Notes under the pieces: generated by a model | Database searches by the model: none | Told to the model about the DNA's origin: nothing | The model's input: only the letters and a program-made list of their open reading frames with translations | From: Adineta ricciae | Lineage: Eukaryota > Rotifera > Eurotatoria > Adinetida > Adinetidae | Assembly (NCBI GenBank): GCA_905250025.1 | Contig: CAJNOJ010000285.1 | Coordinates: 35,972-99,971, forward strand | Reading direction: 5' to 3' | Length of the DNA: 64,000 nucleotides | Program-made: the position numbers and the translations under genes | Part shown: in pieces, positions 6,018 to 40,168 of the stretch | Numbering within the stretch: the first letter of the stretch is position 1 | Layout of the letters: each line of letters begins with the position of its first letter

Positions 6018-7814
6018 TTTTTATATCTAAAAGATATTTCAAATAACATTACTAAGTGGGATTATTGGAACAAATATGGAAGTATTCATTTAGATATTCT
6101 TCAAATTTATTAAATAGAATTTTGTTTAAGTGATTGATTATTCCAATCCAACTTATCCGATATTTTATAAAATATGTCAATTGATTCAAAACTTGATATT
6201 TGTCTGAAAGAAAGAGAATTCGACATTTCACGATGTTTCTTCGAAATGAAAAAAAAACTGTTAAATGAACAATTCTTTATTTATAAATAACTTTCTCTTT
6301 CGCAAATCTACATTTTCTTGATAACGAAGGAAAAAATACTTTTATTTTAACTACTAGTAGAAAAGAACATTGGGAATGTTGCCTATAACTATGCAGAAAT
6401 AACATCAATTGAAAATATATGAAATATGACTTGTTTTTAATATACTAATAGAGAAAACGTTTGTTCTATACACTTTCGTATAATTACGGCTTATATTTTA
6501 GAATGCTGTTTCTTTGTACAATTAGAAAAATGATTCTTTTTTTTGTCAAGGTATTATTGCGTCTTTTACAAAATCATATTTCATGTAAATGGTTTTTTAA
6601 TTTATTGATTATAACTTTTGAGGCATGGAGACTTTTATTCTGTTTCTGAATTTCTAAACTTTCTCTATAATCTATTACACTGATAGTTGATTAAAAGGAT
6701 CTTTTATGATAAGATAAATTTTAGATAAAATCATATTAATCTTTAGAAAAAGAAATTGATGGAGCTCTTCTAAGATAAAAAAAAAAGCAAATAAATACAC
6801 AAAATTGTCATTCGTTTCTACATCTATTTAATTAGTCTTATTCTTTCTACTACTCTAAGAAATGAAATCCTTATGTGCAGAAAAAAAAAACTTATTTTGT
6901 AAAAGAATCAAATAAACGACTGTTCTTCTCAAAATGGATTATTGAATAAACCAACATTTTCTTGATTCCAATTTTAACGTTAAATAATCAATCTGAACAC
7001 ATCAAGTTGTTTAATGAACTTACTCTGGAAACAAGCTTTAATACAAATAGAACAATGAACTGAAAACGAATAATACTATAATACATTTATTTTGGTGTTT
7101 TTTTATAAGATAAACTTAATAAAATTAGTAATATTCATTCGCGTCATGTATATTTATTGAAATGTATCGTTTATATTGTACAAAATGCAAACTGTATAAA
7201 CATAATTCTATATTGTATTTGCCCTGCGAAGATCGCTGATTCGGATCATGTTTATGAAAGATTTCAAGGTATTAGATAAAAGAATTGATGTTGAGATAAC
7301 ATAAGAAAGACTTTTAACTAATAAGAAAACAAAATATTGAGCGAGAAAGAAAAAAAACAATATTCTTCTGTTTTCAGAAGAAATTTTAATAAAAAAAAAG
7401 ACATTTGACTATTTTTTCTTTGTTTCAAATAAATAATCGTGCATTTTCTTTCACTTTACATTTAGATTAAAATATCATTGATATTTCTAAACATTCCTTC
7501 TCATCTGTACCACTCTGATTCTGTTTTCTTTCTTAAAATAAAATTTCCCCAATAAAACCAACTAGAAACATAAAGAAATGATTCACCTTCACATCGAATC
7601 TAATTATTTAATTTCTTTTATATCTAGATGTTTACGTATATGAATGTCACAAGTGCATTCTTCAAAATATGAAACATAAATTCATAAGTAGTCTTTGACC
7701 TTCGGTAACAGTTTTGCTTACTCTAACTATACAGCAGTTTACAGAGGAACCAAAGATTGATCAGAATTGAAGACTATAAATATGAAAATTGTTGATCTGC
7801 TGCACTGATTTCAT
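6018..7814. other. Gene-free AT-rich spacer
   Basis: About 1.8 kb with strong A/T bias and only short chance reading frames. It presumably holds the promoter of the NHL gene starting at 6017, but I recognise no specific motif. It is absent from the duplicated block at 10055-14547, which goes straight from NHL sequence to the region matching 7815. Confidence 0.5.
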
Positions 7815-10053: not shown

Positions 10054-10054
10054 N

Positions 10055-12420
10055 ATTCCTTGAGGAGAATTTAACATATTTGATGTTGATCCAGCAGAAC
10101 CATTTCCTACTACAATTGATGGGATAGTTGTACCATTATTAAGTAAAAGTTTAGTAACTTGATGTTGATTTTGAATAGAACAATAGAGATTATTATTAAT
10201 ATCAATGAATAAGCCAATACAACTTCCATTTACATTCATAACTGTAATAAAATTTGATGTATTAAAGAAATATTTATCAATTCGGCCATATAAATAACCA
10301 TTATCCACATAAATATCACCAGTAATAGAAACGAACACACTATGTGGATTTGATACATTAATATAAGTGAGAATTGATGCTGAACTATTCCATTGCGACC
10401 ATTTTAAAATAGTATTATTGACTTGATTAATTACATAAACATTATTAATTCCATCAATAAAAATACCATTAGGTATTGTACCAATTGTCCCACTCGAAGC
10501 AAAAGTAACGCCGTTTGGTGACCATATTGCGTTTGAACAAATTGTTGGTTGATTATAAGATAAATCTTAAATAAATCAATGAATAATATTTTAAAGAAGA
10601 AAATAAAATTATCGAAATTGACTTACTACATGAATTTGATGCCAGAAGCAATTTAACGATTCGACTATTCGAACTGTCGGAAACATAAAGATTTCCATAA
10701 CTATCGAAACTTATGGCTGTTGGGTAATTTAATTGATTTAATGCAGAACCAGGAACACTAGTACATCCGAATAAACATCGATAACCATATGGTCCTAATC
10801 CAAGTATTCGATGATTATGATCATCAACAATAAAAAGATATCCATTCGCATCAAGTATAACACCATATGGACAATTTAATGTGGGGGTTCCTGGTGCATT
10901 ATTTCCAACCAATGTAGTTCCATTAGTTTGTCCCAATGCAAACATTTGAATTCTATTGTTACTACAATCTGCAACATACAAGTTAAATTTAATATCAACA
11001 AAGATTCCGGTGGGATAGGTCAACATATTTGCAGATGATCCAGCAACTCCTGTGCCAGCAACTATAGTGGAAGTAGTGACATTATCATTTAACCATTTCT
11101 TCACAACTTGATGATTAAGATTTAATGAACAATAGAGAGTATTACTAGAATCTACAAACATCGCATAACATGAACTAACGATTGACATTGAAAGAATACT
11201 TGTATTGGAGTTAAATGTCCATTTATCGACTCTATGATTACTATAGCCATTATCAACATATATATCACCGTTGGGAGTAACGAAAACACTATATGTCGTG
11301 TTCAGACCAGTAGAAATAACTCTATTTGGATTTATACTTCCTTCGGACCAGATTAATACCTGACTATTTTGTTTATTAGCTACATAGATAGTATTATTGG
11401 TTGTAACAAAAACTGTAAATGGACTTGTACCAACCGTACTGCTATTAGCAAATGTAATCGCATCTGTATACCATGTTGTAGATGGACATAAGTTTGGTTG
11501 ATTAGTAACGAAATCTAATAAGCAGAAAAAGATGAAACTCTTCCGAAGTTTAGTGAACCGAAATATTTATTAAAATTCTTCGATTCGTTCTACCTTGAAG
11601 ATAACAGTACTTCGTGGATTAAGTGCGATTGTAACAAGTTCTGACTGGGTTAGCTTCTAAACCTTGACTTAATTTATAAATAGACTTACTAAATACTTTG
11701 TGGAGTCATATTCTCAAAGCTAAATTCAGTCAAAAATATGCTCAATCCATGCAACTCTATCGTTCTATTTATAATAATTAAAGTTTTCAAATAAAAAAAA
11801 ACTGAATAGACTGATTTGGTTAATGATTCTATTGTCATCTCTTTTTAGGTGACTCATATCTAAGAACTAAATTTATGAATCTGTACTTTTCATAAGGATG
11901 TTTTATCTAGTTTATGAAATGATAGGAAAAGATTTTACTGTTACACTCACCTGAAGAAATATTTGTTATAAGAAATTTTTGAATTCGATGATTCCAATCA
12001 TCAGCTACAATCATATTTCCATGATTATCAAAATACATTGTGGTTGGATAATATAACTGATTGGATGCTAAACCTATAACACTTGAACATCCAACTAAAC
12101 AACGGTATCCATTTGGTCCCGAGCCAACAACACGATGATTTCCACAGTCTGTAACAAAGAGATATCCTTCTGCATCAAGTACAATTCCAGAAGGACAACT
12201 AAGACTAATAGTTCCAGATGCTCCAGTTCCTGCTACTGTTATTCCATTGAGTTGTTGTGATTGAAATAATTGAACTCGATTATTAAAACAGTCAGTAACA
12301 TATAAATTGAGATTTGTGTCAACAAATATACCACGAGGACCATTAAGTGTGTTTGATGTTGATCCAGAACAATCTGTACCAGCAGCAACTATCCACATAT
12401 TTGAATTACTATTCAATGAT
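10055..12420 (-). pseudogene. Partial second copy of the NHL propeller gene, cut at both ends by n joins
   Basis: Matches 817-3183 in order and orientation. It contains the 5' part of propeller exon 4 (10565-10055), a complete 888-bp propeller exon 3 (11514-10627) and the 3' part of propeller exon 2 (12420-11951). The splice sites are conserved (donor GTAAGT at 10626, acceptor at 11515, donor GTGAGT at 11950). The intron at 10566-10626 is 61 bp instead of 60. The reading frames remain open, so this is an incomplete piece rather than a decayed gene. Both ends abut single n characters (10054, 12421), so truncation is probably an assembly effect. Confidence 0.75.
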
Positions 12421-12421
12421 N

Positions 12422-14547
12422 AGGAATGATACACACCTGGAAACTTTCAATCTGTGAAATCATTGAGCTTATTCCCTGAAAGACTAGAACTTTACAAAGC
12501 TGACAGATACAAACACGATTGAAAATAATGGCAGTCGGATTTCTCTCTACACTTATAGCACTCTGGAAGCTCAGAAAAGAGGGGATTATAATCCAGCCCA
12601 CGCGAGAAGGTCTTGTCATTATTTCTGACAATGTAAGTCATACTGAAGTGTATTTTATACTAATCCTTATTTTATGAATATCAACATAATTGGTGTGCAG
12701 TGTTTGAATCGCCTCAAACTATCATTAATATAATATACCACAACTAATGACAAGATCACCTTTGATTATCGAAGCATATATACAATGTGGAGAAGTATAT
12801 TATAAGCTTGAGAATCTATCAGTTACTTAACAAAATTTACAGAATGCACATAGTGCCTTAGAGAAATAGCAAAATGTAATTTCCGATTGGTGATTGAGAT
12901 ATTGCGATGAATACTTACTATGGTGAAACTGTACGTTCGAACTGGATTAAATGTTTAGAGATTACAAATTACCAAGATCCGATGAGTAAAGATTTACTTT
13001 TATATTGTCGCTTCTTTCTCATCCTGTTTCAACAAAAAATTGGACATTATCATGAAAGAGATCTTTATATATCGAAGAACTAATAAGCCTAACCCACAGC
13101 GCTAAATCAAATTTTGATTTTATATTGAAAGAACTCTTATTTATGTTGTGTCACGAAAAATAAAGAACGATTTAGAAAAATGAACATAATACCATGATAG
13201 GTATCTAGTTCTACCAAATATAAGTGTAGCGGTGACGTAAATCGATCAATATCAACTATTGCAGAAGTACTAATTAAAGAAACCTAACAAAAGTAAATCT
13301 TAATTTAGTTGAGATAGAAATAACGTTTTCAGAAGAGAATAAAATTTCATGATGATTACTCGATTTTTGAACAAAGTTGTTTTTGCATATTCGCTATAGA
13401 ACATTGTTTCCGATACTAAACGTATCTGAAATAGCGTTACAACGGATACTTTCTGAATGGTACATTTCAAATCAATAGATTTCTTTGATTTGTGTCTCTG
13501 CTACGCTTTCCATATTTTCTCTTAAACGATTATCACACCAACTGGTTTGATGAGTAAAAAGTTCTGAGAAAAATCAAGGGGTTAATTCAAATGTAGAATG
13601 TATCGTTTTTATACTCGTCAACATAACTACGTGGAAAATATCCGCAATAACCTAAAAAGAAATCTTCAGAACGTGAAAGTTCAAGAATATCGCCAATGAT
13701 CTTTTTATTAGGTTAATGAATGAAGGGTAGTTTTTTTTTTCCTAAACAATTCTAATTCTAATTCTAATGAAAATAAAAGATATGGATTAAATTTGGGATA
13801 AACCGCCATCAACAAATAATTCAATTCCCGTTATATATGAACTATCATCGGAAGCAAGAAACACTACAGCTTTTGCAACTTCATCTGGTGTTCCAAGACG
13901 ATTCATCGGTGTTGCTTCTGTCCACATTTTAAGATTATTTTCGACTTCATCTTGCGTATTTCCCATCGATCTAAGAAGAGGTGTATCAATTGCTCCTGGA
14001 CTCAGTGTATTAACACGAATTTGCCGTTCTTTTAAATCGACTGTCATACAACGAGCAAATGAACGTAAAGCAGCTTTTGTTGCACAATAAACAGTTAAAT
14101 CTGGATCTCCTTTATTCGAAGAATTTGATCCATTAATAATAATTGAAGATCGATTAACTAGAATTGGCAATGCTTTTTGAATTGTAAAGAAAACACCTTT
14201 GACATTGACATTAAATGTTTCATCAAAATGCTTTTCAGTAATTGTACCAAATCGAGCAAATGAACAACTTGCTGCATTGGCAAATATAATATCTAATCGT
14301 CCTTTTGTCTCACGAATAATATCGATTAATCGATCGAGATGATTCAGATCTGATGCATCGCCTTGAACAGCCGTTATTCGATTGGATTGAATTTTCTTCA
14401 CAGCTTCATCGAGTTTTTCTTGTCTTCGTCCAGTTATGAAAACATGTTCAATACCTTCAAGAATAAAACGTTCAGCTGTTGCAAAGCCAATACCTTCTGA
14501 TCCTCCAGTAATCAAAGCGATTTTTCCATCTAGTTTTCCCATTCTTA
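12422..14547. repeat. Duplicated block B, copy 2
   Basis: The direct copy of 7815-10053, starting immediately after the n at 12421. It carries the second SDR gene and its spacer (12422-13786 holds no convincing gene). Relative to copy 1 it lacks short stretches, including 57 bp matching the area around 8713-8770. Confidence 0.85.
13787..14542 (-). CDS. Classical short-chain dehydrogenase/reductase, copy 2
   Basis: A 251-aa SDR almost identical to the copy at 9293-10048, with the same TGGSEGIG, NAAS, serine and YCATK motifs. Differences are few and conservative (for example a Leu/Phe change before TIQKALP). An in-frame ATG further upstream (14653) would add 37 residues, but that extension is not part of the SDR fold and cannot be compared with copy 1, which ends at the join. 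I therefore place the start at MGKLDGK. It is divergent from the MFS gene beginning at 14847. Confidence 0.87.
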   Translation of the reverse strand: MGKLDGKIALITGGSEGIGFATAERFILEGIEHVFITGRRQEKLDEAVKKIQSNRITAVQGDASDLNHLDRLIDIIRETKGRLDIIFANAASCSFARFGTITEKHFDETFNVNVKGVFFTIQKALPILVNRSSIIINGSNSSNKGDPDLTVYCATKAALRSFARCMTVDLKERQIRVNTLSPGAIDTPLLRSMGNTQDEVENNLKMWTEATPMNRLGTPDEVAKAVVFLASDDSSYITGIELFVDGGLSQI

Positions 14548-14846: not shown

Positions 14847-16365
14847 ATGTTGTCAAGCGTGAATATTTATGCAATATCGAGTATAGTTTGTCTTGAAAGT
14901 TTATCAAATTGTGTTGTCTCATCACTTGGCCAATATATTTATTCATTTTATTTAAATAAAACACAAAATGAAAGTGTGAATGACGACAATCTTTGGGCAC
15001 AAGAACAATCAGCTGAATTGTTTTGGAAAAAAGATTTGTTTAGTTGTATTCCAACGATTATTATTACTTGTTTATTGGGTTTTCATATGAACAAAGTTGG
15101 ACGAAGATTTGTTTTGATTTTATTTTTAATTGGAAATTCAATTCAGTTTTTTCTTTGGTTATTTATCATTTCGTATCAATTAGAAGAATATTGGTGGTTC
15201 ATTTCGTCGTTTATTCTCGGTTTAACTGGTTCACAACCGATTTTTCGTAAGAGAATTTCGGTTTCATTGGATTTTAAAGATCAAATTTGACTTTGTTTCA
15301 GATTTAACATTGAATTTATTTGTGACAGATTTAACAAAAGAAACGGATCGTTCGATTTATTTTGTTTTTCTTGATGCATTGAAGACATTCGTCACATCTA
15401 TTGGAGATTTTCTTATTGGTTATTATTTATCTTCATATTCTTTCATTAATTTAGTTTATCTTTCATTAATCTCACAAATAATCTCGATTATCATCATTAT
15501 TTTATGTTTTAAATCATCTCCTCGTTCACAAACTCTCTTACCAGTTGAATTTTATAATGATATTCGAATCAAAGAATCCTTTTGGTCGAAATTGAACTTA
15601 TGTTACTCGAAATCGAGCTGTTGGAATGTTTTCTTGATATTTTTTGCGTATATTTTCTATTCGTTTGCGAATTCTGCACTTTGGTCAAATTTTCTTTGGT
15701 ATTTACTTGATTTTCCGTTTAATTGGTCATCGATACAAATTGGAAATTTCAATGCTTTATCAGCAATTGTAACTGCAGTGTTCAGTGTTATTGGAATGAA
15801 AATCTTAACACGATTTTCTCTTTGTGATTCACTTATTTGTTGTTTAAGTCAGATTTGTTTGATTTGTTTGGCGCTTAACTTTGTTTTTGCTCGAGAAAAT
15901 TGGCATTTATATTTGAGTTTATTAATTTTTCCATTTGTTGAGTATCAAAGTTCGTTAACGTGGTCACTCATATCAAAATCATTTCAACCAAATCAATTTC
16001 ATTGTTTGTTTACATTTCTTGCAATTATCGATACAATTTGTTCGTTATTTGGAAATTCGTTATTCAATTGGATTTATCAATTGACTGTTGACAATTTACC
16101 TTATTTAACTTTTCTCATTGCTGTCGGACTTTCAATGATTTCTCTAATATTTAATCTGTAAGTCGAATTTATTGAAAGATTTACAGAACTTTTGCTTTCT
16201 TTTAGATCTTTTTTTCTTTTCAGTCGACGATTCTCCAAATTAAACGAGAATTCATCGGTGGAATCCAAAGATATTGATTTGATTTGGTTGGATATTCCAA
16301 TTGATACAATCGAATCTGAAAAGAATTCATTAAGTACACTTACACATGATTTAATCATTTTGTAG
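14847..16365 (+). CDS. MFS transporter, SLC46-like
   Basis: Three exons, 14847-15246, 15302-16157 and 16206-16365, joined by GT..AG introns of 55 and 48 bp, give 471 aa with about 12 hydrophobic segments. The loop HMNKVGRRFVL between TM2 and TM3 resembles the MFS signature D-x-x-GRR/K, and the N-terminal half (Asn-rich first loop, then W-K-K-D-L-F) resembles the SLC46/folate-transporter branch. The substrate is unknown. The second copy at 33299-34523 has the same exon lengths; there a base change removes the alternative acceptor near 16224, supporting the acceptor at 16205. A hydrophilic C-terminal tail of about 50 residues follows the last TM. Confidence 0.78.
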
Positions 16366-16496
16366 ATTTTATTAAAAAGTTTTTCCTTTTACATTTTATA
16401 TCTTCAAGTTATAACAAACAGTTGAATGTTCGTTTGTATTTGAATTTAAATCAGATTGTTCTGACAAATGAGATAAGAAGAAGAAGAAGAATGAAA

Positions 16497-17381
16497 TCAA
16501 GGAGAATTTGTTAAACTGATCTTTTTCTTCGATTTCTTTCGATGAAATGCCTTCGAAATATCAGCTATTTGAAAGAGGATTGAGACGAGATTTTTGAAAA
16601 CAAGAAAATAACTTGTATAATCATGATTTCGAATACCAAATATTGCATAAAGACGTACAATTAAATAAGGAATATCGGTGGTCAGAATCACTAAAAACGA
16701 ATCCGTCATTATTAATCCTAAACGAGGAAAATCTTTTTGAAATAAAATTTTTTGTAAAGAAGACATTTGAATGAGAAATTGCAAACAACTAATTGACCAA
16801 ATGGAAAGAATTGTATAAACAAAACGAAGATCAGAATAAAATTTCCAATGATTAAGTAAATCTAAAAAATCTAATAAATCCAGTGCTGTTGTCCATGTTT
16901 TCATTAAAATGATCAATCGAGGATTCTTTCTTTCACATAAACCTTTTAATATTGTCATGAGAAAAAGATAAAGTTGAATTTGAATTTGTGACCATAAAAA
17001 TTTGTTTTGAAAATAAAAATTATCAAGTGATTTTAATGGTGCATAATAGATAATTGAAAAGACTTCAACACTTGATTGAGTTTCATGGCGATTTATTAAA
17101 GTTTTAATTCGATATAGTTCAAAGAACCAAATTGATGAAATGATAAATATTGAATAGATTAATAAAAATATAAACGAATTTTTGTAACGAAATTTTAAAA
17201 AAATAAAGAATATTTTTTCGAAAATAAGACAAACTAAACCAATTATTGGAATAAAATACAATTTTCGAGTTGGTTTTGTTAAATAAATCATATATATCGA
17301 TATAGCCAAATGTATTATACAGAAAAAACGAGCGATAAACAAAAGAGCCAACGGAAATTTACCCGTCTGATGTTTATTCAT
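16497..17381 (-). CDS. TMEM26-like multipass membrane protein, copy 1
   Basis: 294 aa with about eight hydrophobic segments, no signal peptide and a basic C-terminal tail (FHRKKSKKK). The order of conserved pieces resembles TMEM26: an LDLLDFLDLL stretch mid-protein, an IWS...LQF segment, and DIPYLIVRLYAIFG late in the chain. The molecular function of TMEM26 is not established. The start MNKHQ is chosen because the frame upstream has no ATG and, in the second copy (34649-35533), an extra T in a T-run breaks that upstream extension while the protein from MNKHQ stays intact. It is convergent with the MFS gene ending at 16365. Confidence 0.7.
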   Translation of the reverse strand: MNKHQTGKFPLALLFIARFFCIIHLAISIYMIYLTKPTRKLYFIPIIGLVCLIFEKIFFIFLKFRYKNSFIFLLIYSIFIISSIWFFELYRIKTLINRHETQSSVEVFSIIYYAPLKSLDNFYFQNKFLWSQIQIQLYLFLMTILKGLCERKNPRLIILMKTWTTALDLLDFLDLLNHWKFYSDLRFVYTILSIWSISCLQFLIQMSSLQKILFQKDFPRLGLIMTDSFLVILTTDIPYLIVRLYAIFGIRNHDYTSYFLVFKNLVSILFQIADISKAFHRKKSKKKISLTNSP

Positions 17382-18592
17382 CTTTCGAGTAATGACATTG
17401 ACTTCAGTTGTACAAGGAGAAAGACTTTTTTTGTCGTCGATAGAACGAAGTGTCAAAACCGAAGGTTAAAGAAAGAAAGAAAAAAAAGGTAATTACTTGT
17501 GTAAAGCAGAACTTACGATGAATGGTTTGAAATTAGTCTGATGAGACATTCAAGGTGAGACTGAGAGAACAGGAGAAAATATATTACATATTTATGCTTT
17601 GTTTGAAATTTTCATCTGTTTCACTTCTTATTATTCTTCGAATCAACTTACATCTGGTTCAAACTAAAAGCATAAATATTCATTTGATTGAGAATACAAC
17701 AAATTTTCATCTATGATATGAACTGAAAAGATTTCTTTGTATTTCGCAAAGAATCAGTTTATCAATTTCATATGTAAAAGAAGGATGATCACGCCCATGA
17801 TTTGTTTAACTTTCGGTGCGAGTTATCGTGGTATTAAGCGTATTAATTTCAAAGTAAATCATATCTCATGGATTCGCTCAAATGCGTAATGCTAGAAATG
17901 AGTAATTCAGTAATCTACAATGAAAGTTCCCAAAGAAGAAAATGATAATTTGCAGCACGTGATCTGTTGTTTTTTTACAGTGAAGAATTAAATTCGACTT
18001 CTTGTATTTGTAATATTATACTTCAGATTACATTAATCATAGATTTGGCTCTTCGGTTCCTTGAATTTCAAATAGGAATTTATAAAGAAAAGTAATGTAT
18101 TTGGTTAGTTTTCTGACATTGTTCAATGCATCTATAAATACAGTCTTTCAATAATTATGTGGTAAAATAGGGAAGGAAATAGGTTCTTCTTTCTCCCAAG
18201 TGACATGAACTCATGTTTGTCTTTGGTTTTGGTACAATTAAGAATATTCATCAAAGGTAAAGAATAGTTCGAATAGCGGTCTTTATTTATCTCGGACATC
18301 ATCTTAAGGAAAATATTTTCTTCAACAAGCATTCATAAAGTTGGGAAGGAAAATGCTGCGACCTTTAATATACTAGCATTGATGGCAATGTATGAATGTC
18401 TTCTATTTCATTGGAAAGTGATGTTCTAGAAATGAGAGAAGCTGGAGTATAGAAAAACAAGATAATGGATAATAACATAATCTGTTTCTTTTTTACACAC
18501 TCAGCTCTATTATGATCAAAAAAGCTAAGGAAACTAAATACACTACGATTAAATTTTCATATTCTTTTAAGTATTTGTGAGTAGAATTGTAG
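17382..18592. other. Spacer with a deleted GPCR relic
   Basis: Non-coding AT-rich sequence colinear with 35534-37264. Around 18210-18330 it keeps only short pieces of the GPCR-like sequence that is longer in the second copy (36480-37066), so most of that relic has been deleted here. Confidence 0.5.
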
Positions 18593-21206
18593 TCAGAGAA
18601 GAATACACGCAGTTGATTTCAATGTTGTTGAAGAAGACATTGGTAAACTTAACGTTTCACGTCTATTGACAGGAAGTTTGAGAAGAGAATTTTTAAATCG
18701 ATCAAAAATATATTCTTCGAGTTCATCACCTCCATAAGCATTGGCATAACGACGAGCATATTTTAAAAATTCATTCTTCGGATCTGCTTGTAGTTTCAAA
18801 GCATACTGATTGATTTCAGCCATGGACTGGAAATCATATAATTTCACCAACGTATCAGGTACATTGTGAGTATGAAACCATTTCTGAATATCTTCCCGAT
18901 TCCATTCTTCCGGCGATTTCTCTTTATCAAAATCGGTTGACTGGATTTTATCGTTTTCCTTTTGAGATTGTGCGGCTGTATTATGCTGTTTTATTCGTTG
19001 TTGTTTTAATAATCCTCCTTTCGTTTCGCTGATGGTAGATTCGATCGTCTTCAACATTTCTCGAGTTTTAGTAGCATCCAGTTCATTTGTGTTGCTTTTG
19101 AAACGAACATATTTACGATCAGCAATATGGATATCTAGAATAGTGTAGAAATCGTTAACTCGATTCGAGTATTAAAACTTTCGTTTGAACTCTAAATACT
19201 TCAGTTTAGAATTAGAGTTTTAAACTATTTAACTTCCACCATCACCCACATCCTCTTAGATAAAAAGTATTAAGCCTGTAAAACAACATACCAAGCCAGT
19301 CACAATCACCAGGTTCACCAAAATAGATAGGAACAATGGGTTTATTGCGTTTGATAGCAAAAGTAATTTCTTTTCGACACGACTTGCTGTTGTAATAATC
19401 TTGCGAAAGAAGACATACGACGAGATTAGCTTCTCCGATACCGCGAGCAATCTTTTCCCATAAATCTTCACTCGATGAACAATGATCACGATCAATCCAA
19501 ATTCGAAAAAGATGTTCATCTTTTTCTAATGCTTTAAGAATTTCATCGCAAAATCGATCGTTATCATGAGCATAACTAATCATAATCATTGCTTTACTAT
19601 TGCCCGCATTTGAAGCAATCGGCAGACTCGCGATAACATTTTCCTCCTTATGCGATGTCACGTTGAGATTGTGAAGAATACCATTAGAAGCATTTTTCGG
19701 ACTTTCCATAGATCGTGAAACGTATTGATCGGCCATTTTCTCATCGTTCTCCAGAGATATAGTTTTGATGATCTCTATTAACTTATCATTTTGCTTCAGT
19801 TTTGTTTTATACCGATCTTGAAAGGAAATACTCCAGAGAATATTTAATAGAGCTGTGATTACAAGTTGTCTACGATAATCGTTGAGAGAAGATGAATCTT
19901 GAAACTTGATGAGTAAATCGACAAATAAAGCAATTGTTGCTGATAATGTTAGCTGTGGATCAGTTTCTGCGTGATTCAAGACATATTCAAGTGAACGATC
20001 ATCCACAAATAATTTGACGAACACGATCAAAGGCTCAGATACATGAAAACCATCGCCGTCACGATAATCGTCCTCCTAAACAATAAGAGCTTATAACACC
20101 GCTATTTTTTACCGCTGAACGGCAAGGGTAAGAGTAGTGATGGGTAAAAAGAAGATACATCCTTACTCTAATTCTCTGACTTTATTTTAGTATTTCAAAC
20201 TTACTTGGGCGGCATCAATAGTCATTTGTAATAGCTGGTTAAGAATTGTGTTCTTGCGTTTATTATCTAAACGAATTTGTTCGACTGTAGACAGATGGGC
20301 TATGGCCATGGAAATGAGAAGATTGTTTTTATCAGGCAACTCTTCTTTGTTATCATTTTGAATATTTTGAAGAATACACAGTCCGTCAAATTTCTTAAGT
20401 TCATCGGCGCCGTCATTGTGTCTCGAGATATTATGAATGATACTGACGAATTGTTCAGCTGCTGCAGATGATAAGGTCACTGCTTTCAACCATTTTAAGA
20501 CCATTTTCGGCAACTCAGTATCGAGTAACCATGGTACAACAATTGTAGAATCTGATAGATTCCAGATAAACGACAGAATACAACTTGTCAAACTGTCGAG
20601 ATCATCATCTTCTTCAGTGCAGTTCGCAGTCGCGTCAGATACACTGCGTTCCACCGATTTACACATCGCGCAGAATAATTTAGTGTATTTGCGACTAGCA
20701 GTATCTTCCTTAACAAAATGCATATTTCCAACAATTATATAAGCTATGCGTAGAAGTGCACGGACCACCGGTTTATAAAATTCTGTTTGCGCTGTTGTCG
20801 TTTGTTGATAATCATGGAAATACATGTATCTTTCTTGTTTAGAGAGAAGATTGAGAGATTTAAAGAAAACCTTACGTGTGAACAATATTCTTTCTTGCGA
20901 AAAAGCCTTAGATGGAACCTGTAGCATTACTTTTTCAAAAAGATTCGCACAAATTTGAATATCATTCGCATCAGCATCTGTAGCTCTCGCAATATAATCG
21001 ATCAGTTCAGAATATAATTCGTTTGATTCTTGATAACGGTCTTGTGCACTCGCATCACTGTCATGTAATTTTTGAAGTTGATCGCGTATACTTTGAAGAC
21101 TTTTCTTCGATGTATCCGTTGATTCTTTCCCATCCGGCGATGATTTATTCACAGATTCTTTTTCTGCTTTAAAAACATCGCATTTAGTTTCTTCAGTTTC
21201 ATCCAT
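18593..21206 (-). CDS. ARM-like/TIR/SAM protein with C-terminal CaaX box, copy 1
   Basis: Exons 21206-20205 (phase 0), 20075-19292 (phase 1) and 19134-18593 give 775 aa. Residues 1-490 are alpha-helical, armadillo-like. A TIR domain follows at about 495-595 (MIMISYAHD, WIDRDHCSSSEDLWEKIA, CLLSQDYYNS, IVPIYFG); the Glu in DLWEKIA is the likely NADase glutamate by comparison with SARM1-type TIRs. Residues 640-720 look like a SAM domain (EEWNREDIQKWF...). The chain ends CILL, a CaaX box expected to be geranylgeranylated, so the protein is probably membrane-bound. SARM1 is ARM-SAM-SAM-TIR; here TIR precedes SAM, so this is a rearranged relative. It likely senses stress or infection and acts on NAD+ or by TIR assembly (inference). 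A second intact copy is at 37265-40070. Confidence 0.82.
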
Positions 21207-24144
21207 CTTGCAGAAATTTGTATGCTGACGACGTATGTTTGTTTGAAGTCTTTTTATAGTAAGAATAAGAATGATTTCTCCCGCACTGAGCGGAAACGTA
21301 AATGGAAAGACATGGACTTCTTGTCATTAATAATCAGCAGGCCAAATATTTTGTTTCAGTGTGGGAAAAAGAAACTAAAAAACAATTTTAAAACAACACT
21401 CGCAGAACGACTAAAAGAAATGTGAACATAAACAAGACGGTGAATTCTCTTTTATCTCCAGTACAATTTTGTGATGTTTTGTTTGAAGTGAGAATACAAA
21501 AATGGTTTAATGGAAAAAAAAACATCGTCACTCCTCATCCATTTGATACAGAACTGTGATGGAAATGGGTGAACATTGAGGATCAACACATTGATATCGA
21601 GTATTGTAAATGATTGATAATCTTATTGTTTGGATGTTTTGTGAGATTGATTTTACTATAATGAAAATGAAAACAAATAAGAAAATCACACGTTTGATCT
21701 TCACTAAAAGTATTTTCATTTAAAATACTAATATCATTTTCTTTTAAAATAAGTTATGTGTACTGCAAAAGTGTACCAGAGAGATGAGTCATTCAGGCGT
21801 GTCGTCACATCCAAATTACCATGAGGAACCTTTTCAATGAGTATAATCCTTTGTATTCTATCTATCACCATTACGGTCATACGTAACTTCATGAGTCTAC
21901 AAAGAGACATATTACAGATCGTCATATAATATCTCCAGCAAGAAAGTTTACGATATGAACATTTAGAGCGCCTTTTTATTAAATTAAAAATCATGATCCA
22001 TGGATCCGAGAAACCTCAAAAGCTGCAAGAAACGTTTGTTGTTTCGACTCGCTTTATCCTCGACTTTGGAAGAAACTAGTTTCTTTTGTCTATACTATTA
22101 CCATCCTATGTTAAACAGCAATACGCAGGTGTCGATATGGATTAGATATACATCTCATAACATCACTATTACCTACATTATCATGATGCTTACTACTTCC
22201 AATCTATAGTTGAGCACTATTCCATGATTTCGAAAATATTCCATTTATCCAGACACAAGAGGAACAAAGGACATCCCTCTCCTATATGACAATTCAAGAT
22301 CCGAGGGTCTTATATGCTAAACGACACAAGTGGTCAAAAGTACTTACACAATACAGTATACGGGGATCTGAGAGTACCCGTATAGTACCGGACTTGACGA
22401 CCTAAGAGTGCCTTCACAGTACGGGGTATAAGGACTCAAGGGTATCGCGCTACGCTGTTGTATATCAGTAATTAGTATTCATAAAACTGATTATAGCGAT
22501 GCTTGTAGCAAATGCAAACGTTTTTTATGAAAACTCTATACTACCCCTCAGGGATGATCCAATGAATTTCCAGAATTTTAACGATATCTCAACCATTTTT
22601 TCTGCTGAGATGTTGATGAGAGAATTCTGTGGAAAAAATCCAACCAATCGCTCATATTTTCGAACAGTTAAAACGATATAGTACATTGATTTCCTTCCAA
22701 AAATATATTCATGAAATAGATGATATAGAAATATAATTGAAACTCAGATACAAGTAAAATAGTATCCGGAAGAATTTTGAGTGAAACTTTGCAATCGTAG
22801 TTATTTTCATATAATTTCCATTATGTTGAGTGTTTTTCGTGGATCCTCAAATTACAAACAGACATTTCAAATCCATAAAGTAAATTTAGGAAATCATTTC
22901 CATCTTTTTAAAAAGTTGATCATACATAATTCGATATAAAGGAGAAAATAAATGATATTTTTTCAGAGTATGTTTCACAGATAAAAGAAATAAAGAACTT
23001 TTTGTAAATTCAGATAAACAATGAAAAACGAAGTTTATTTTAAAAAAATATAATCTTAACGAAATATCTGAGGTCGAACAACGTGAGACAGTTGATCTTA
23101 TAGCAATTGTTGATGTGTTTGTCAAATCCAGAACACTTTTTGTTGCTTCTCAGAGCTAACTTTCGAATCACAATTCTGAATAAGAAGTGATTAACGACAT
23201 GAAATGTTACAAAATATTCTGAATTACAACAATGAAAAGCAGAGATTGAATAAAATCCTGTATTAGTTTTAGAACATTAATCAGTAAAATGATAGTTGAC
23301 GTGGATAAGTCATTTGTTTTGCGTGACATCTCTTTTATAATCTTTTATTTACCAACAGTTCATGACGTTTTAATCATCTTGACTCTCTCCGATACAAAAA
23401 GAATAATTTTTGTTTTCTCTAGTTTCAAAACTAAATATTAATTAGAAATATTCATATGATTACAAATATCAGATCTTGCAACAATTTCTAACAAATCTTC
23501 AATGATTTTAAGTCGGAAAATGTCGCTAGAACGCATTTAGTCATGTTCTCTTGCAAGTTTTTCCGCAGGCTCAGTGTAATTAATTTTCTCGTTTTTACCA
23601 ATTTTCATTTCAATATCAGATGAGTGTTCAGGGTAAATGTGTGCGTGATGTCTCATTTATTGTCTCGTCTTATTATTTTGTAATTAGATAAAAACAAATT
23701 TTCATTAAGCCAAATTGAAAATATTCTTTCTGTCAAATCAATGTTTTAATCAAAAACAGAAAGAGAAACATTTGTGAAATTCAGTTATTCTATACTATGA
23801 AGGATTCGAAATGAAAGGGATGCCTACATGCTGTTTAGTTGAGTCTTTTTTAGGTCTTTTTGAAGATGTCCGTAGCGGGGATGAAAAAAGAAAATGTAAT
23901 TTACTATATTTAGAAGATCGGTTAATTGAATAATGACTGGAGAATTTAAGTAAAATAGTGTTTCCGTTCTTCCCTGTTAGTGTCTATCTTCTATGTTGAA
24001 GCTAAATCCTCTGTTGAAAAGAGAGAAACGATAGACAATAATTATTCTCACACGTCAAAGTATTTGTCTGTCTCAGTTAGTTTTCTTCAAATAACTTGAC
24101 ATCCATCGGTGTTTTTCTTTGATCTTTTCTCGAAAGGCGTAGAA
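21207..24144. other. Gene-free AT-rich spacer
   Basis: About 2.9 kb with only short unsupported frames. Positions 21207-21304 match 40071-40168 of the second copy; the rest (21305-24584) is replaced there by 16 Ns. It contains the GC-richer block at 22250-22460 described separately. Confidence 0.5.
22250..22460. repeat. GC-richer degenerate repeat block
   Basis: A roughly 200-bp island of higher GC than its surroundings. Related phrases recur: acagtatacggggatctgag, gtatagtaccggacttgacg and acagtacggggtataaggac, spaced about 35-50 bp. I cannot assign it to a known element. Confidence 0.25.
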
Positions 24145-25125
24145 ATGTCTACGACATCGTTGTTAATCAATGATATTCGAAATAAACTTCTGATCGCTAT
24201 TGGTATCATCTTTATCTTTCTCGGAACTGTTGGAAATATTTTAAATATAATTTTATTCAAACGTCGTTCAATGTGGACACTTTCTCCAAGTATTCCATTG
24301 CTTTTAATCGCTTCAATTTGCAATTTAATCACAATATATCCATACCTTCTATTAAGGACATTTCTTGGTTTTAATCTCCCATTAGTTTACACATCCTCAA
24401 TCTTATGTAAAATGCATGTTTATTGTTATTATATTTCCATTGTTACTTCAACTTGGTTAATGGTTGCGTGTTGTGCGGATCGATTCTTTTCATCATCTCG
24501 TCATGTGAAAATACGTGCGTATAGTAATATGAAAACAACTCGACGTATAACAATGATTGCATTTCTGGTCATACCTTGTGTTTATATTCCAACACTTTAT
24601 TGCTATGAGATTAATCAATTTACTAAACCAGTTCCATGTTATCAACAAAACAGCGAATGTGGATTAGCAGATATTGTGAATTATTTCGTTTTTCAATCTG
24701 TTGGTCCACCTATATTCATGCTTATATTTACTATTGGCACTATAATGCACATTCGGCAAGGTCATCAGGTTGGACCAGATATTCCACTTTCAGCAGTAAC
24801 AAATCCTTCGACAACAATTCATAAAAACACAAGAATCAATCGAAAAACTAATCGAGCAAACACACGATTACTCTATGCTCAAGTTATTGTGTATCTTCTT
24901 TGCTCGATACCACTTTTTACTATGAAACTATATGCACTTATTCCACTCTCAATCGTCAAAAGTGATGTTCGAATATCTGTCGAAGCACTTCTCCTAAATG
25001 TCGCTCTTTGGTTTAGTTTGGTTGACAAAATCTTTTCATTTTATATTTATACATTATCAAGTAGACATTTTCGGCAAGAACTTATGAAACTCTTTAGAAA
25101 AAACATACAACAACGACAGAATTAA
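24145..25125 (+). CDS. Orphan rhodopsin-like GPCR (bdelloid expansion type)
   Basis: 326 aa, one exon, with seven hydrophobic segments. TM1 contains GTVGNILNIILF, TM3 begins after SILCKMHVYCYY and ends ACCADRFF (a DRF variant of the DRY motif), ECL2 carries PVPCYQQNSEC for the TM3 disulfide, and after TM7 comes SSRHFRQELMKLF as helix 8. TM7 has DKIFSFYIY in place of NPxxY. The start ATG at 24145 follows an ATG-free stretch. The ligand is unknown; peptide-receptor-like by shape only. The second copy (40185-40725) is broken, so this is the only intact one in the window. Confidence 0.82.
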   Translation: MSTTSLLINDIRNKLLIAIGIIFIFLGTVGNILNIILFKRRSMWTLSPSIPLLLIASICNLITIYPYLLLRTFLGFNLPLVYTSSILCKMHVYCYYISIVTSTWLMVACCADRFFSSSRHVKIRAYSNMKTTRRITMIAFLVIPCVYIPTLYCYEINQFTKPVPCYQQNSECGLADIVNYFVFQSVGPPIFMLIFTIGTIMHIRQGHQVGPDIPLSAVTNPSTTIHKNTRINRKTNRANTRLLYAQVIVYLLCSIPLFTMKLYALIPLSIVKSDVRISVEALLLNVALWFSLVDKIFSFYIYTLSSRHFRQELMKLFRKNIQQRQN

Positions 25126-25329
25126 TCATCTCTTCTTTTGAAAACTTTGAATTCTGGTTTCTTTAGTTTCGCAAATAAATCTTATTCTAAAATGAGCCGA
25201 ATCGGTTGTGTATTCTACTGATAGTTCGATTCTCTGAAGTATTTATAGCACAAGTTGGTTATTAAATGATAATACTCTTTGGTAGTTCTTCAAAAAGATG
25301 AATAGTGTCTATATATAGATCTATCAATT

Positions 25330-26330
25330 AAGGTAATCGTTTCTTTTTTGTTCTTTGTCCATCCATCAGCACGAATATCACCATTAGGACTGATCGAAAG
25401 TAATTTAGATACTATGTTTATTGTAGCCAAACCTGATTGTAATTCTAACACAGAACAAATGGGATTTACTTTTCAAAATAAAAACAGATTAATCCCAAAA
25501 CTATTTTTCATATGAATGACAAACCTGTGTAAACAGAAAGTACACTCCCAAACACCATTCTCACATTTCAGTCAATATCCAATAGGTGTGATCACATCTT
25601 CATAACCATGAATTTCATCGAAAATAAACTTGTCCTTTGGTATTTACTGTCACACACGGGTTGTACAAACCAACTTATATTTTCGAATTATACACGTGAG
25701 TTGTCTTTTAAAGTAAACGACAGTAAACAGTGATAAATCAGTAAATAATTCTAATGTGACTTGCTTCTTTAACGTGGGATTCGTTGCGAACAAGAGTTCA
25801 CTCCTCAGAAATTTGTAATAATTGTGTTTGACCAGCTAGTTCTAACCGAGATGTACTGGAAGGTAATACTGGCAAACTTACCATCGAATAATTATCCGTT
25901 TCATGATAAAGCAAAGAATATAAACGCTAAAGTACGGCTAACAGTTTCATTCTCAATAGAACAAGTATAGTCGAGTCAACAGGACATGAGCCATCAATGT
26001 TGATTTTCTTCGTTGTTGTATCAGAATCATCGCCATTATTGAGAGAGTCGTTGGAAAATTGAGTCCATACACTATTGACACACGGTTATATTGAGTGAAC
26101 CTCCCTCCAATATTCACATATTCTGTTCAACATGTCATTTCCACATAAGATCCCGACAGTATACAATTATCATTTGATTGATCTCTTAATAAATTATAAA
26201 GAACTCACATTAACAGATTGGTAATGAACTCTATGATCCATTGTTATAACAAGTCACACGAAAACGAACAGTTGAATTAAATCGAAATTCTGGAGCACAA
26301 ACGTATTCCAAATATGTACAGCGGTTGGTG
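25330..26330 (-). pseudogene. Decayed secreted-protein gene with sushi/CCP-like pieces, copy 1
   Basis: Minus-strand fragments in shifting frames include a piece reading YVCAPxFRFNSTVRFRVICYNNGS and a GYVNIGG segment, which recall sushi-type modules. The same sequence in the second copy (41000-42440) is longer and keeps a 156-codon open stretch; here internal deletions (around 25750) have removed much of it. No continuous gene can be built. The family assignment is weak. Confidence 0.35.
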
Positions 26331-26519
26331 TCGCTACTCTCAGATAAGATATTTTTCATCCAATAAATCTATTTTCAAGGTGATTTATTGAAGTGTGACG
26401 AAAATATGTCGTATGCTTCCCTTTTTCTGCTTTAATGATTCACAAGTCAAAGAAAATAATTTCCGAACCATTTTGTTTTTGATCAATACCGATGACGTCG
26501 ATCTTCATTCATTTTCTAG

Positions 26520-27895
26520 ATGGATAACGTTGTTCTTACTTCGGACAGTCCGGAAGCGTCACCTGACGATATCTTAATCGATTGTGACGATTCCTCCGCA
26601 ACAGCTGATGATTCACCATTACTTTCAGATGGTCACTTAGCAGAACTCAACTCGGCACATCATCCACCTTCTTTTGATGAAAACAATTCCGTTGGTAGAC
26701 GATGTCCAATTTCAGTCAAAAAAAGACTTCTAATCGGTTGTCTTCTTGGATCATCAATAACACTTTTAGCAGTCATTTCAACTGGATTTATTCTATCAAA
26801 AAAATTATCGAAAAATTTCGATACGACGACAACAACAACAGAAACTACTTTGCCAAATCAATCCTCAACAAGTGAGTTGAGGGTTTCGTTTGAAAATCCA
26901 ATAATTGTACTGTTTTAGCAACAATCGAAACTGTAACATCTTCGTCGAAATCCTGTTCAATTCCAACCGTAAATGGCAAATGGAATGAAACAGGTTTTGT
27001 ATTAATAAATCCCGGAGGTGAATGTTCTTCAAATGAATATGGTTTATGTCATTCTCAAGATTTCTTTTTTGATGATATTCACTATACTCTTTATGTTGCT
27101 GATACAAAAAATGATCGAATACAAAAATATTCTCTAAATGAACCATTTAATCCGAATCCAGGTCTTCTTGGAGTTACTGTAGCCAGTAGAAATCTTTCTT
27201 CTCCACAATCTCTCTTTGTTGATGTTCAAACAGAAGATATTTATATTTTGGATTTTCTTGAAAATGATACAACTGATAATAAAACAGACATTGTTTCGTA
27301 TCGTGTTCATTTATGGAAGAAAAACGATCAAATTGGAAAGATTTTACTGAGCGAACAAGGTGAATATTTATATTCACAATCTATTCATCGTTTAACATTG
27401 GATAAACAAATGAATATTTATGTTGGAACGAGATATTTCATTAAGAAATGGTTAAAATCAACTGATTATACCCAAAATGTCATTGTTGCTGGAAAAAGTC
27501 GATCGAATTTAACCGACCAAAGTAATCTTTGGGATCCAGTGGGATTTGTTGTTACTGATGATTTAACGTTATTTATCGCTGATTGGCAAAATAAAAGAAT
27601 TCAAAAATGGAAAGACAATGCAACCGAAGGAGAAACAATTGTCAAAAATTTAACATATGTCATTGGATTAACAATGGATTGTAACGGATTTCTTTATTAT
27701 GTTGATATGTATGAACGAACAATTCATCAAATTGATTTAGTCAACAATCAGAAACGAGTAATTGTTACAGATCAAGGTGAATTCAGAAGTAGTTGCTATT
27801 TTGGTCAAAGAGCAATTCGAACTGACCGATTTGAAAATATTTTTCTTTTAGGAGATAATCAACTATGTCAATTTTCTTTGCAAATAACTACATAA
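26520..27895 (+). CDS. Type II membrane protein with NHL-like ectodomain
   Basis: Exons 26520-26871 and 26919-27895 with a 47-bp intron (phase 1) give 442 aa. The N-terminal 75 residues are acidic and cytosolic-looking. A single TM follows (LLIGCLLGSSITLLAVISTGFIL, about 75-95), then a Thr-rich stalk (TTTTTTETT) and a six-bladed-like NHL/beta-propeller ectodomain with blades such as LYVADTKNDRIQKYS and LFIADWQNKRIQKW. It is probably a surface receptor or adhesion protein. The ATG is preceded by ttttctag, so an upstream exon cannot be excluded. The second copy (42530-43747) has a premature stop and an internal loss. Confidence 0.78.
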
Positions 27896-27974
27896 AAACT
27901 TTATTTTTGATCTTATTTGAAGTGCACTTCTTCATTTCACTATTTATATACGTTGATCTTTGAAAGAAAAAGTA

Positions 27975-28952
27975 TTAAAGATGCGAACGTGTGTTTTGAT
28001 ATTGTTGAATAAATAATTTAACAAAATGAGTAAGAAGTTCGGGTTGTTCCTGAGGAAATGAATGATTGGAATCTCTTAATAGTGTATCATAACCATATTG
28101 AAACCATTGAGAAAGATCAGGTGCAACTGATGGAACCGAAATTCTTCCAGATAATTGAGAAAGACCTGCTCGAATCACATGAACTTTGGTTTGGTGAATA
28201 AATTTCGAATTTTGAACAATTTGGCGAATATCTGATTCTCGATGAACACTTATTTCATACAAATGCCAAGCTCTTTCAGGTGTACAATGAAGTTTGCCGT
28301 TTTCATCAATTGCATAAGAACAATAATCACGAAGAACATCTTTTGGCCATGAAAAAAGTCGAGAAGGTTTCTCCATATATGAAATCATTTCTTCAATTGA
28401 AGACCATTGACCTCGTCGTGGTGCTAAATGTTTCGAAGACTTCGAATGTTGATCACTTTGTTCATAGTAAAATGAAGAAAAGATTCCGGGATCTAGTAAA
28501 AGTAAGGAGTGAAAGATTGATTTCGATGCCAATGCACCAGCTAAGACAAGAGCATGTCCACCAAGTGAATGACCGATGCCAAGTAAAGAATTCTTCTTTG
28601 ATAAATCGAGAATTTCGATAAAATTTAATAAATCTTCACCAAACCATGAAAATCGATAAGGAAGACGATGCTTATCTGATTGACCATGTCCGCGAAAGTC
28701 AATCGAAATCACGTGATATCCTAATAAAGCTTCATTTATTATTCGATCATAACATCGACTATGAAGTGTTCCACCATGACACATTAAAATCGTTGGCCCA
28801 TAACCTTTCCATTCCCAATAATGCATTCTTAGTGGACCTTCACCCACTTCACCATTTTCTTTCACTAATGGACGTTTTGGTAAAGTTAAAAAATGACTTG
28901 TAGGATTCGAAGAAATCATCCGATGACAACGAAGAACTATCGAAGATAACAT
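27975..28952 (-). CDS. Alpha/beta-hydrolase fold protein
   Basis: 325 aa, single exon. An oxyanion-type HGG occurs in LMCHGGTLHSRCYD near residue 60, followed by IDFRGHGQSD, the nucleophile elbow GIGHSLGG near 130, and a late histidine in DSNHSFPQE near 300. The acid residue is probably in the VHVIRAG strand region but is not clear. It resembles serum-hydrolase-like esterases; the substrate is unknown. It sits convergent to the NHL membrane gene (80 bp apart) and upstream of the GGT 3' end on the same strand. The second copy at 43831-44550 is broken. Confidence 0.82.
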   Translation of the reverse strand: MLSSIVLRCHRMISSNPTSHFLTLPKRPLVKENGEVGEGPLRMHYWEWKGYGPTILMCHGGTLHSRCYDRIINEALLGYHVISIDFRGHGQSDKHRLPYRFSWFGEDLLNFIEILDLSKKNSLLGIGHSLGGHALVLAGALASKSIFHSLLLLDPGIFSSFYYEQSDQHSKSSKHLAPRRGQWSSIEEMISYMEKPSRLFSWPKDVLRDYCSYAIDENGKLHCTPERAWHLYEISVHRESDIRQIVQNSKFIHQTKVHVIRAGLSQLSGRISVPSVAPDLSQWFQYGYDTLLRDSNHSFPQEQPELLTHFVKLFIQQYQNTRSHL

Positions 28953-29083
28953 TTCATTTTCGAATGAGGAAAATTTTATTCAATGAATTATCTCGTCCTT
29001 TGATTGGTGAAAGTTTTTTTGTATTTTAGAACAAATGAAAAATCAGAGGGCGCTGTGATACATTGTTATTCGATATTTTCGTT

Positions 29084-33297: not shown

Positions 33298-33298
33298 N

Positions 33299-34523: not shown

Positions 34524-34648
34524 ATTTTATTAAAAAGTTTCTCCTTTTATAATTTATATCTTCAAATTATAACAAACAGTTGAATGTTCGTTTGAATTTG
34601 AATTTAAATCAGATCGTTCTAACAAATGAGATGAGAAGAAGAATGAAA

Positions 34649-37264: not shown

Positions 37265-40070
37265 TCAGAGAAGAATACATGCAGTCGATTTCGGTGTTGA
37301 TGAAGAAGACGTTGACAAACTCATGATTTCACGTCGAACGACGGGAAGTTTGAGAAGAGAATTTTTAAATCGATCAAAAATATATTCTTCGAGTTCATCA
37401 TCTGCATAAGTCTTTGCATAACGACGAGCATATTTCAAAAATTCATTCTTCGGATCTGTTTGTAGTTTAAGAGCATATTGATTGATTTCATTCACGGACT
37501 GAAAATCAAATAATTTCACCAACGTATCAGGTACATTGTGAGTATGAAACCATTTCCGAATATCTTCTCGAGTCCATTCTTCCGGCGATTTCTCTTTATC
37601 AAAACCGGTTGACTGGATTTTATCGTTTTCCTTTTGCGACTGTGCGGGTGTCTCATGCTGTTTTGTTCGTTGTGGTTGTAATGATTGTCCATTCGTTTCG
37701 CTGATAGTAGCTTCGATCGTCTTCAACATTTCTTGAACTTTAGTAGTATTCAGTTCTTTTGTGTCATTTGTGAAACGAACATATTTGCGATCAGCAATGT
37801 GAATATCTACAAACAATGATTTGTTACATTATACAACAAATAGGTTTTACTCTCCGTATTTAGAAATTTGACTACAAAGTACACGGGCGTTATATTGGTC
37901 TCTGACACCTGCTAAATCGATCTAAGTCTCTTAGGTAAAAGTTATCAGTATGTAAAAGACAACATACCAAGCCAATCACAATCACCAGGTTTACCGAAAT
38001 AGATAGGAATAATAGGTTTGTTGCGTTTGAAAGCAAAAGTAAATTCTTTTCGACACGACCTGCTGTTGTAATAATCTTGCGAGAGAAGACATATGACAAG
38101 ATTTGCTTCTCCAATACCACGAGCAATCTTTTCCCATAAATCTTCACTAGATGAACAATGATCGCGATCAATCCAAATTCGAAAGAGATCTTCATCTTTT
38201 TTCAATGCTGTGAGAATTTTATCGCAAAATTCATTGTTATCATGAGCATAGCTAATCATAACCATCGCTTTACTCTTGTTCGTATCTGAAGCGATCGGCA
38301 GATTCGGAATACGATTTTCCTCTTTTTCCGATGTCACATTAAGATTGTGAAGAATACCATTAGAAGCATTTCTCGAACTTTCCATAGAACGTGAAACATA
38401 TTGATGAGTCGTTTTCTCATCATTGCCCAGAGATATAGTTTTGATGATCTCCAGTAACTTTTCATTTTGCTTCAGTTTTGTTTTATACCGATCTTGGAAG
38501 GAAATACTCCAGAGAATGTTTAATAGAGCTGTGATTACAAGTTGTTTACGATAATCGTTCTTGGCAGATGGACCTTGAAAGGCGATGAGTAAGTCGACAA
38601 ATAAAGCAATTGTCGCTGATAATGTTAGTTGTGGCTCAGTTTCTGCATGATTGAAGACATATTCAAGTGAATGATCATCCACAAACAGTTTGACGAATAC
38701 GGTCAAAGGCTCAGACACATGAAAGCCATCGCCCTCACGATAATCATCCTCCTAAATAAGAAGAGCTTATAGCACCGCTATTTTTAACCGCTGAACGGCA
38801 AGGGTAAGAGTAGTGATGGGTAAAAAGAAGATACATCCTTACTCTAATTCTCTGACTTTATTTTAGTATTTCAAACTTACTTGGGCGGCATCAATAGTCA
38901 TTTGTAAGAGTTGATTAAGAATTCTGTTCTTTCGTTTATTATTTGAACGAATTTCTTCGACTGTTGACAGATGAGCNACCGCTGAACGGCAAGGGTAAGA
39001 GTAGTGATGGGTAAAAAGAAGATACATCCTTACTCTAATTCTCTGACTTTATTTTAGTATTTCAAACTTACTTGGGCGGCATCAATAGTCATTTGTAAGA
39101 GTTGATTAAGAATTCTGTTCTTTCGTTTATTATTTGAACGAATTTCTTCGACTGTTGACAGATGAGCGGTCGCCATAGAAATGAGAAGATCACTTTTATC
39201 AGACAACTGTTCTTCGTAATCATTTTGAATATTCTGAAGAATATGCAGTCCATCAAATTTATTGAGTTCATCGGCGCCGTCATCGTGCCTTGAGATATTA
39301 TGAATAATACTGAAGGATTGTTGAGCTGCTGCGGATGAGAGTGTTACTACTTTTAACCATTCTAAGACCATTTTCGGCAAACCAGCATCGACCAACCATG
39401 GCACAACAACTGTAGAATCAGTTAGATTCCAGAAAAATGATAGAATACAACTTGCTAAACTACTGTCATCGACTTCTTCAGTGCAGATCGCAGTCGCCTC
39501 ATGCACATTGCGTTCCACCCATTTACACATTGCGCAGAATAAGTTAATGTATTTACGGCTAGCAGTATCCGTCTTAATAAAACTAACCTCGTCAACAATG
39601 GAGGTAGCAATGCTTAAAAGCGCACAAATCACCAATTCATAGAATTTTGCTTGCGCTATTATTGTTTGTTGATTATCATTTAAATACGTGTACATTTCTG
39701 GTTTACAGAGCAAATTGAGAGATGTAAAGAAAACCTTACGTGTGAACAATATTCTTTCTTTCGAATCAGATTCAGGTGGAACCTGTAGCATTACTTCTTC
39801 AAAAAGATTCGCACAAATTTGAATATCATTCGCATCAGCATCTGTAGCTCTCGCAATATAATCGATCAGTTCAGAATATAATTCATTTGATTCTTGATAA
39901 CGGTCTTGTGCACTCGCATCACTGTCATGTAATTTTTGAAGTTGATCGCGTATACTTTGAAGACTTTTCTTCGATGTATCCGTTGATTCTTTCCCATCCA
40001 GCGATGATTTATTCACAGATTCTTTTTCTGCTTTAAAAACATCGCATTTAGTTTCTTCAGTTTCATCCAT
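37265..40070 (-). CDS. ARM-like/TIR/SAM protein with C-terminal CaaX box, copy 2
   Basis: Exons 40070-39072, 38751-37968 and 37806-37265 (the last two exactly as long as in copy 1) give 774 aa. The TIR keeps MVMISYAHD, WIDRDHCSSSEDLWEKIA and CLLSQDYYNS, and the SAM-like region and terminal CILL prenylation box are conserved. The ARM-like middle of exon 1 differs strongly from copy 1 while the first 110 codons and part of intron 1 are nearly identical. Intron 1 (38752-39071) is inflated by a 190-bp exact duplication around the n at 38977, which is probably artificial. All frames are open, so both copies look functional. Confidence 0.8.
38787..39167. repeat. Exact 190-bp direct duplication around an n join
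   Basis: 38787-38976 and 38978-39167 are identical base for base, separated by the single n at 38977. The repeat covers intron 1 and the end of exon 1 of the TIR-SAM copy. This is what an uncollapsed overlap between two contig ends looks like. Confidence 0.85.
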
Positions 40071-40168
40071 CTTGCAGAAATTTGTATGCTGACGACGTAT
40101 GTTTGTTTGAAGTCTTTTTATAGTAAGAATAAGAATGATTTCTCCCGCACTGAGCGGAAACGTAAATG

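Follow-up and report, generated by a model that had tools for sequence, protein, structure and literature searches.

A SAM-type C-terminal tail closed by a CaaX box is shown here to be widespread in a large expansion of TIR genes in the bdelloid rotifer Adineta ricciae. The gene through which this arrangement is described lies, in two copies, in a 64,000-base stretch of contig CAJNOJ010000285.1 (hereafter the window), and its predicted product carries a helical N-terminal region, a TIR domain, a SAM-like domain and a terminal CILL. The genome-wide pattern of tails strengthens the case for this architecture beyond what the window alone could show.

The CaaX box across the TIR family

In 130.46 Mb of genome sequence (1033 contigs), 140 TIR_2 matches were obtained, corresponding to 118 loci once neighbours are merged. 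All 27 PF01582 matches fall inside a TIR_2 match, and therefore no separate Toll-type TIR showed. A home-made SAM profile devoid of tail residues matched 67 ORF ends. Five of these are cut off by the edge of a fetched fragment and were set aside; the other 62 are closed SAM-type C-terminal ORFs, all of them assigned to TIR loci, and form the basis of the analysis. For 56 of the 118 loci no SAM tail was found, with downstream DNA covered for 45 of them and several of the underlying matches being weak.

Exactly at the stop codon, 27 of the 62 SAM tails read C-x-[LIVM]-x, in 21 different spellings and with a final residue that is M (11), L (9), S (6) or I (1). Cysteine occupies position -4 in 27 of 62 tails, versus 0 to 4 of 62 at every other one of the last 12 positions. 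The same ending closes 16 of 2262 other closed ORFs of at least 40 aa, a background count that retains five SAM-less TIR genes; these five, out of 45 such loci and with their frames checked, end in CSIM (contig C28), CSIL (C66), CVLL (C72), CSVM (C265) and CHVL (C38). The CILL ending put forward by the sequence-only reading of the window is present in both copies and belongs to a pattern that lies far above chance. A binomial comparison of SAM tails and background yields 1.9e-41, but because its rows are related a fairer figure is given by collapsing the tails at 60% SAM identity, whereupon the box is shared by every member in 20 of 43 groups and one group is mixed. On a SAM tree that is poorly resolved, the box label changes at least nine times, with four changes forced by well-supported branches, against a mean of about 20 changes in label-shuffled trees and none of 500 shuffles as low as observed. 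The box is thus clustered and yet found on either side of this tree's deepest split, which, as judged from sequence, makes it a trait of the TIR-SAM class that has been repeatedly lost or gained, and not a peculiarity of the window gene.

The first aliphatic place of the box is taken by N, Q, R or E in 9 of the 27 cases, and the stricter PROSITE CaaX pattern, C-{DENQ}-[LIVM]-x, matches 20 of the 62 tails; boxes such as CELM and CRMM would be poor prenylation substrates. All these counts come from ORFs read to the next stop, so that some ends may be hidden or false wherever a last exon past an intron masks or mimics them. CILL had also been described as a geranylgeranyl-type tail, a label that fits the window copies but is too narrow for the 27 boxes, whose final residues lead us to expect farnesyl types as well. 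At the family level, the genome matches the prenylation-related families PF00432 (prenyltransferase), PF01239 (PPTA) and PF04140 (ICMT).

The window gene, its copies and its domains

The window gene is a real gene. Copy 1 runs from 21206 to 18593 and copy 2 from 40070 to 37265, both on the minus strand and with GT-AG introns, encoding products of 775 and 774 aa, and in both of them TGT ATT CTT CTC TGA spells CILL and the stop codon (Table 1). The exon model agrees with the three-exon layout and CILL end initially proposed for copy 1. With 278 differences over 2325 aligned coding positions and a dN/dS of 0.38, both copies look constrained.

Table 1. Coordinates of the features discussed, as positions in the window (or loci elsewhere in the genome), with their basis.
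Feature	Position	Strand	Basis
Copy 1 exon 1 (start codon and helical N-terminal region, residues 1-334)	20205..21206	-	exon model; no ARM-family sequence match
Copy 1 exon 2 (end of helical region and most of TIR)	19292..20075	-	exon model, Pfam, structure model
Copy 1 exon 3 (TIR end, linker, SAM-like domain, tail, CILL, stop)	18593..19134	-	exon model, family profile
TIR domain, exon 2 part (residues 498-595)	19292..19586	-	Pfam TIR_2; coordinates derived from exon model
Conserved Glu codon (residue 570, C-x-x-E)	19368..19370	-	alignment of paralogues; PDB profile alignment
SAM-like domain (~residues 670-749)	18674..18913	-	family profile A1 against PDB; low-confidence helices in model
CaaX box CILL (residues 772-775), abutting stop	18596..18607	-	exon model; related tails
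Copy 2 exon 1	39072..40070	-	exon model
Copy 2 intron 1 (N at 38977 and part of flanking repeat, ~190 bases)	38752..39071	-	
Copy 2 exon 2	37968..38751	-	exon model
Copy 2 exon 3 (CILL 37279-37268, then stop)	37265..37806	-	exon model
SAM-less TIR loci ending in CaaX-like box	L069, L073, L077, L117, L126		

The claim of two intact copies stands as regards coordinates, splice sites and ends, but the second copy is perhaps a haplotype or ohnologue, not a tandem duplicate. The block in which it resides (33299-45241) aligns piecewise to 15142-29672, at 89-97%, and Ns are found at 33298, 38977, 40169-40184, 43599 and 45242. N runs coincide with the two ends of this block and with three of its internal breaks, but not with the remaining breaks. 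The N at 38977 falls within intron 1 of copy 2, beside the repeat, and the tandem arrangement is unsure because copy 2 spans this scaffold N. As read from the sequence, the block may consist of contigs from an uncollapsed haplotype or an ohnologue that were joined in tandem during scaffolding. Divergence between the copies is itself uneven, with a dS of 0.03 over codons 1-100 (21206-20907 versus 40070-39771) and of 0.43 over the next 150 codons, a mosaic that points to either gene conversion or a mosaic, possibly chimeric, assembly.

The window contains in addition a Mos1/mariner-type transposase ORF of 359 aa (55714-56790, minus strand) and a partly duplicated cluster of NHL-repeat-like ORFs (390-12446, minus strand), to the first of which Pfam was applied. 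The bdelloid spliced-leader exon sequence used as query has no exact match in the genome, and at two mismatches or fewer it matches 44 genome sites, against none in the control; in the eight sites read, GT always follows the exon directly. These putative spliced-leader genes fit a bdelloid rotifer. Some of them lie roughly 15 to 120 bases past the 3' ends of TIR-SAM genes (L068, L071 and L114, on contigs C146 and C79).

The assignment of the TIR domain from sequence is certain, TIR_2 (PF13676) matching residues 498-613 of the copy 1 product with an E-value of 2.7e-20 and 73.5 bits, versus a cut-off of 28. The presence of a likely catalytic Glu in this domain, also suggested beforehand, is borne out by the alignment of paralogues, in which Glu570 is kept in 16 of 16 rows picked out of 27 extracted; at a locus outside that extraction (L055) the Glu is present and the preceding conserved Cys absent. 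At the sequence level, the window TIR therefore displays the C-x-x-E feature of TIR NADases, and a Glu occurs also in TIRs that are not known as NADases. When a family TIR profile is compared to the PDB, the top match is Cat1, a CRISPR-associated TIR protein (PDB 9mud, E 6e-13), with MyD88 chains next; the family Glu column corresponds to Glu in Cat1 and to Gln in the single MyD88 alignment shown.

Pfam does not recognise a SAM domain in the window protein by itself, and it is the profile of the family C-terminal domain, built from 38 sequences, that bears out the earlier assignment of a SAM-like domain after the TIR. Its best PDB match (E 5.5e-5) spans positions 3-38 of 79, suggesting that the domain is SAM-like over its first half. 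The seven PDB matches at E < 0.01 comprise ETV6 fusions, liprin-beta-1, neurabin-1 and cholinephosphotransferase 1 (SGMS1), in which the matched parts are SAM domains, and SARM1 appears in the same search at 0.053 and weaker. Among the 38 members, the Pfam families matched most, at E-values of up to 1, are SAM_3 (7 of 38), SAM_PNT (4) and SAM_2 (4). Seeds for the SAM profile were chosen by a W-motif after the tails had been viewed, and the last residues were left out of it. A structure model with a mean pLDDT of 46 places low-confidence helices in the SAM-like region; used as a Foldseek query, it returned nothing at E 0.001 or better (best E 2.5); among 34 weak matches, five were to SAM entries of liprin or Eps8, to which we attach no weight.

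The N-terminal 470 aa have no convincing sequence match in Pfam or the PDB, ARM families included, and the PDB search gave no SARM1 match to this region. A second model (mean pLDDT 38), built like the first from the two window copies alone, has eight helices ahead of the TIR part. The armadillo-like helices of the sequence-only reading thus find no backing in these searches, and to call the region armadillo is a guess. Elsewhere in the genome, L035 and L047 present the N-terminal region of the family standing alone, with no TIR in the fetched stretch and no adjoining TIR_2 match.

A putative membrane-tethered TIR protein and its alternatives

The reading that we consider probable is that of a cytosolic TIR protein which a prenyl group would hold at membranes, which would cluster through its SAM domain and whose TIR would act on NAD+. 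The layout would run from the helical N-terminal region through TIR and SAM-like domains to a variable tail of about 25 residues and the CaaX box. Judging from the motif and the enzyme families present, a farnesyl- or geranylgeranyltransferase would prenylate the terminal Cys, after which the last three residues would be removed and the new end methylated, allowing the protein to dock on a membrane. By analogy with SARM1, the N-terminal region might keep the protein inactive or sense a trigger. Once the protein is released, its TIRs would be brought together by the SAM domains and by being confined to a surface, and these clustered, Glu-bearing TIRs could then degrade NAD+ or produce a nucleotide signal, with defence or cell death as the outcome. 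Prenylation, membrane location, trigger, catalysis, immune role and outcome are all elements that we infer.

The main competitor shares prenylation and membrane binding with this proposal, and differs in taking the TIR as an adaptor-like scaffold that recruits other TIR proteins and not as an enzyme. Many animal TIRs are scaffolds, the 118 TIR loci of this genome provide many potential partners and MyD88 chains rank right after Cat1 in the PDB search. Nonetheless, all 16 aligned rows keep the catalytic-type Glu, against Gln in the MyD88 alignment shown, and we regard the scaffold as a real but distinctly less likely possibility. It seems improbable, on the other hand, that the Cys box goes unprenylated, be it a chance ending or a C-terminal signal of another sort, for instance for PDZ binding or palmitoylation. 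The 35 of 62 tails that lack the box would agree with such a view, as would its poor spellings (e.g. CELM, CRMM) and the fact that PDZ ligands likewise end in hydrophobic residues. PDZ binding, however, does not require a Cys at -4, which is the only position where Cys is concentrated, and both the restriction of X to M, L, S or I in all 27 boxes and the enrichment over background speak for a genuine CaaX motif.

The protein might also be a rearranged SARM1 orthologue that retains the SARM1 role (NMN sensing, axon or cell death). None of the pieces (helical region, SAM-like domain, TIR) is missing, and no canonical SARM1 was found in a six-frame search, which split exons can escape: none of 38 SAM_1 matches has one of the 140 TIR_2 matches within 27 kb. 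Yet the order of the domains differs, a single SAM-like domain was found where SARM1 has two, the N-terminal region lacks a SARM1 match in the PDB search and the genes form a multigene family, all of which makes orthology with a conserved role unlikely.

Returning to the tethered enzyme, TIR enzymes act when clustered, and how this clustering is positioned within the cell is understood, to our knowledge, for only a few model proteins. The recurrence of a genome-encoded lipid tether, as predicted from the motif, across many TIR-SAM genes suggests a route by which animals lacking Toll-like receptors could position TIR signalling at membranes. More tentatively, and with the odds against it, we may speculate that in a bdelloid, a member of a group in which two species surveyed lack such receptors, the prenyl anchor and SAM clustering stand in for the receptor transmembrane segment, and that switches between farnesyl- and geranylgeranyl-type boxes, together with repeated gain and loss of the box, would spread TIR enzymes over different membranes as a receptor-free form of surveillance. 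PMC8609888 gives Toll-like receptors as undetected in the bdelloids Adineta vaga and Rotaria tardigrada.

Relation to known TIR and CaaX proteins

A close animal parallel in overall composition is SARM1/TIR-1, which likewise combines a helical N-terminus, a SAM-type domain and a TIR in one protein and shares the catalytic-type Glu. The canonical order of SARM1 is ARM-SAM-SAM-TIR, whereas the window protein places its TIR (498-613) before a single SAM-like domain (~670-749), carries a CaaX tail and belongs to a multigene family. The difference in order that had been noted from the outset is therefore confirmed, and the window protein is not a SARM1, since both order and number of SAM domains depart from it.

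Proteins of the ARM-TIR type are already in print for molluscs, namely oyster (PMC4346834), Aplysia (PMC9334734) and a lucinid clam (PMC6836662), and they resemble the window protein in being invertebrate and in having a TIR; their armadillo-type regions have as counterpart here a guess. The available passages of these papers mention neither a SAM tail nor a prenyl box, in contrast to the SAM-like domain and CaaX box of the window protein. In the literature searched, largely papers outside subscription and not the survey of Gerdol et al. 2017, a CaaX tail was not found for any TIR protein, and in two papers that name both TIR and CaaX the CaaX passages concern reporter constructs and a PI3K control. 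The suggestion that this form was previously undescribed holds, within that literature, for the CaaX-tailed TIR, but not for the association of ARM and TIR.

Artificial fusions of plant TIRs with the SAM domains of SARM1 provide a precedent for the order TIR then SAM. According to the relevant passages of PMC10242710, one such fusion triggered cell death, SADR1-driven death needed the catalytic Glu, and two other TIR-SAM fusions, whose protein was not detected, caused no death. These fusions are engineered, and no prenyl tail is mentioned for them in those passages. With Cat1, the likeness consists in its place as top PDB match to the family TIR profile and in the shared Glu column; Cat1 differs in being prokaryotic, and the alignment is confined to the TIR. 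The C-terminus, finally, recalls the Ras and Rho GTPases, CaaX proteins in which a variable tail precedes the box just as in the window protein, with folds that are unrelated to those of TIR and SAM.
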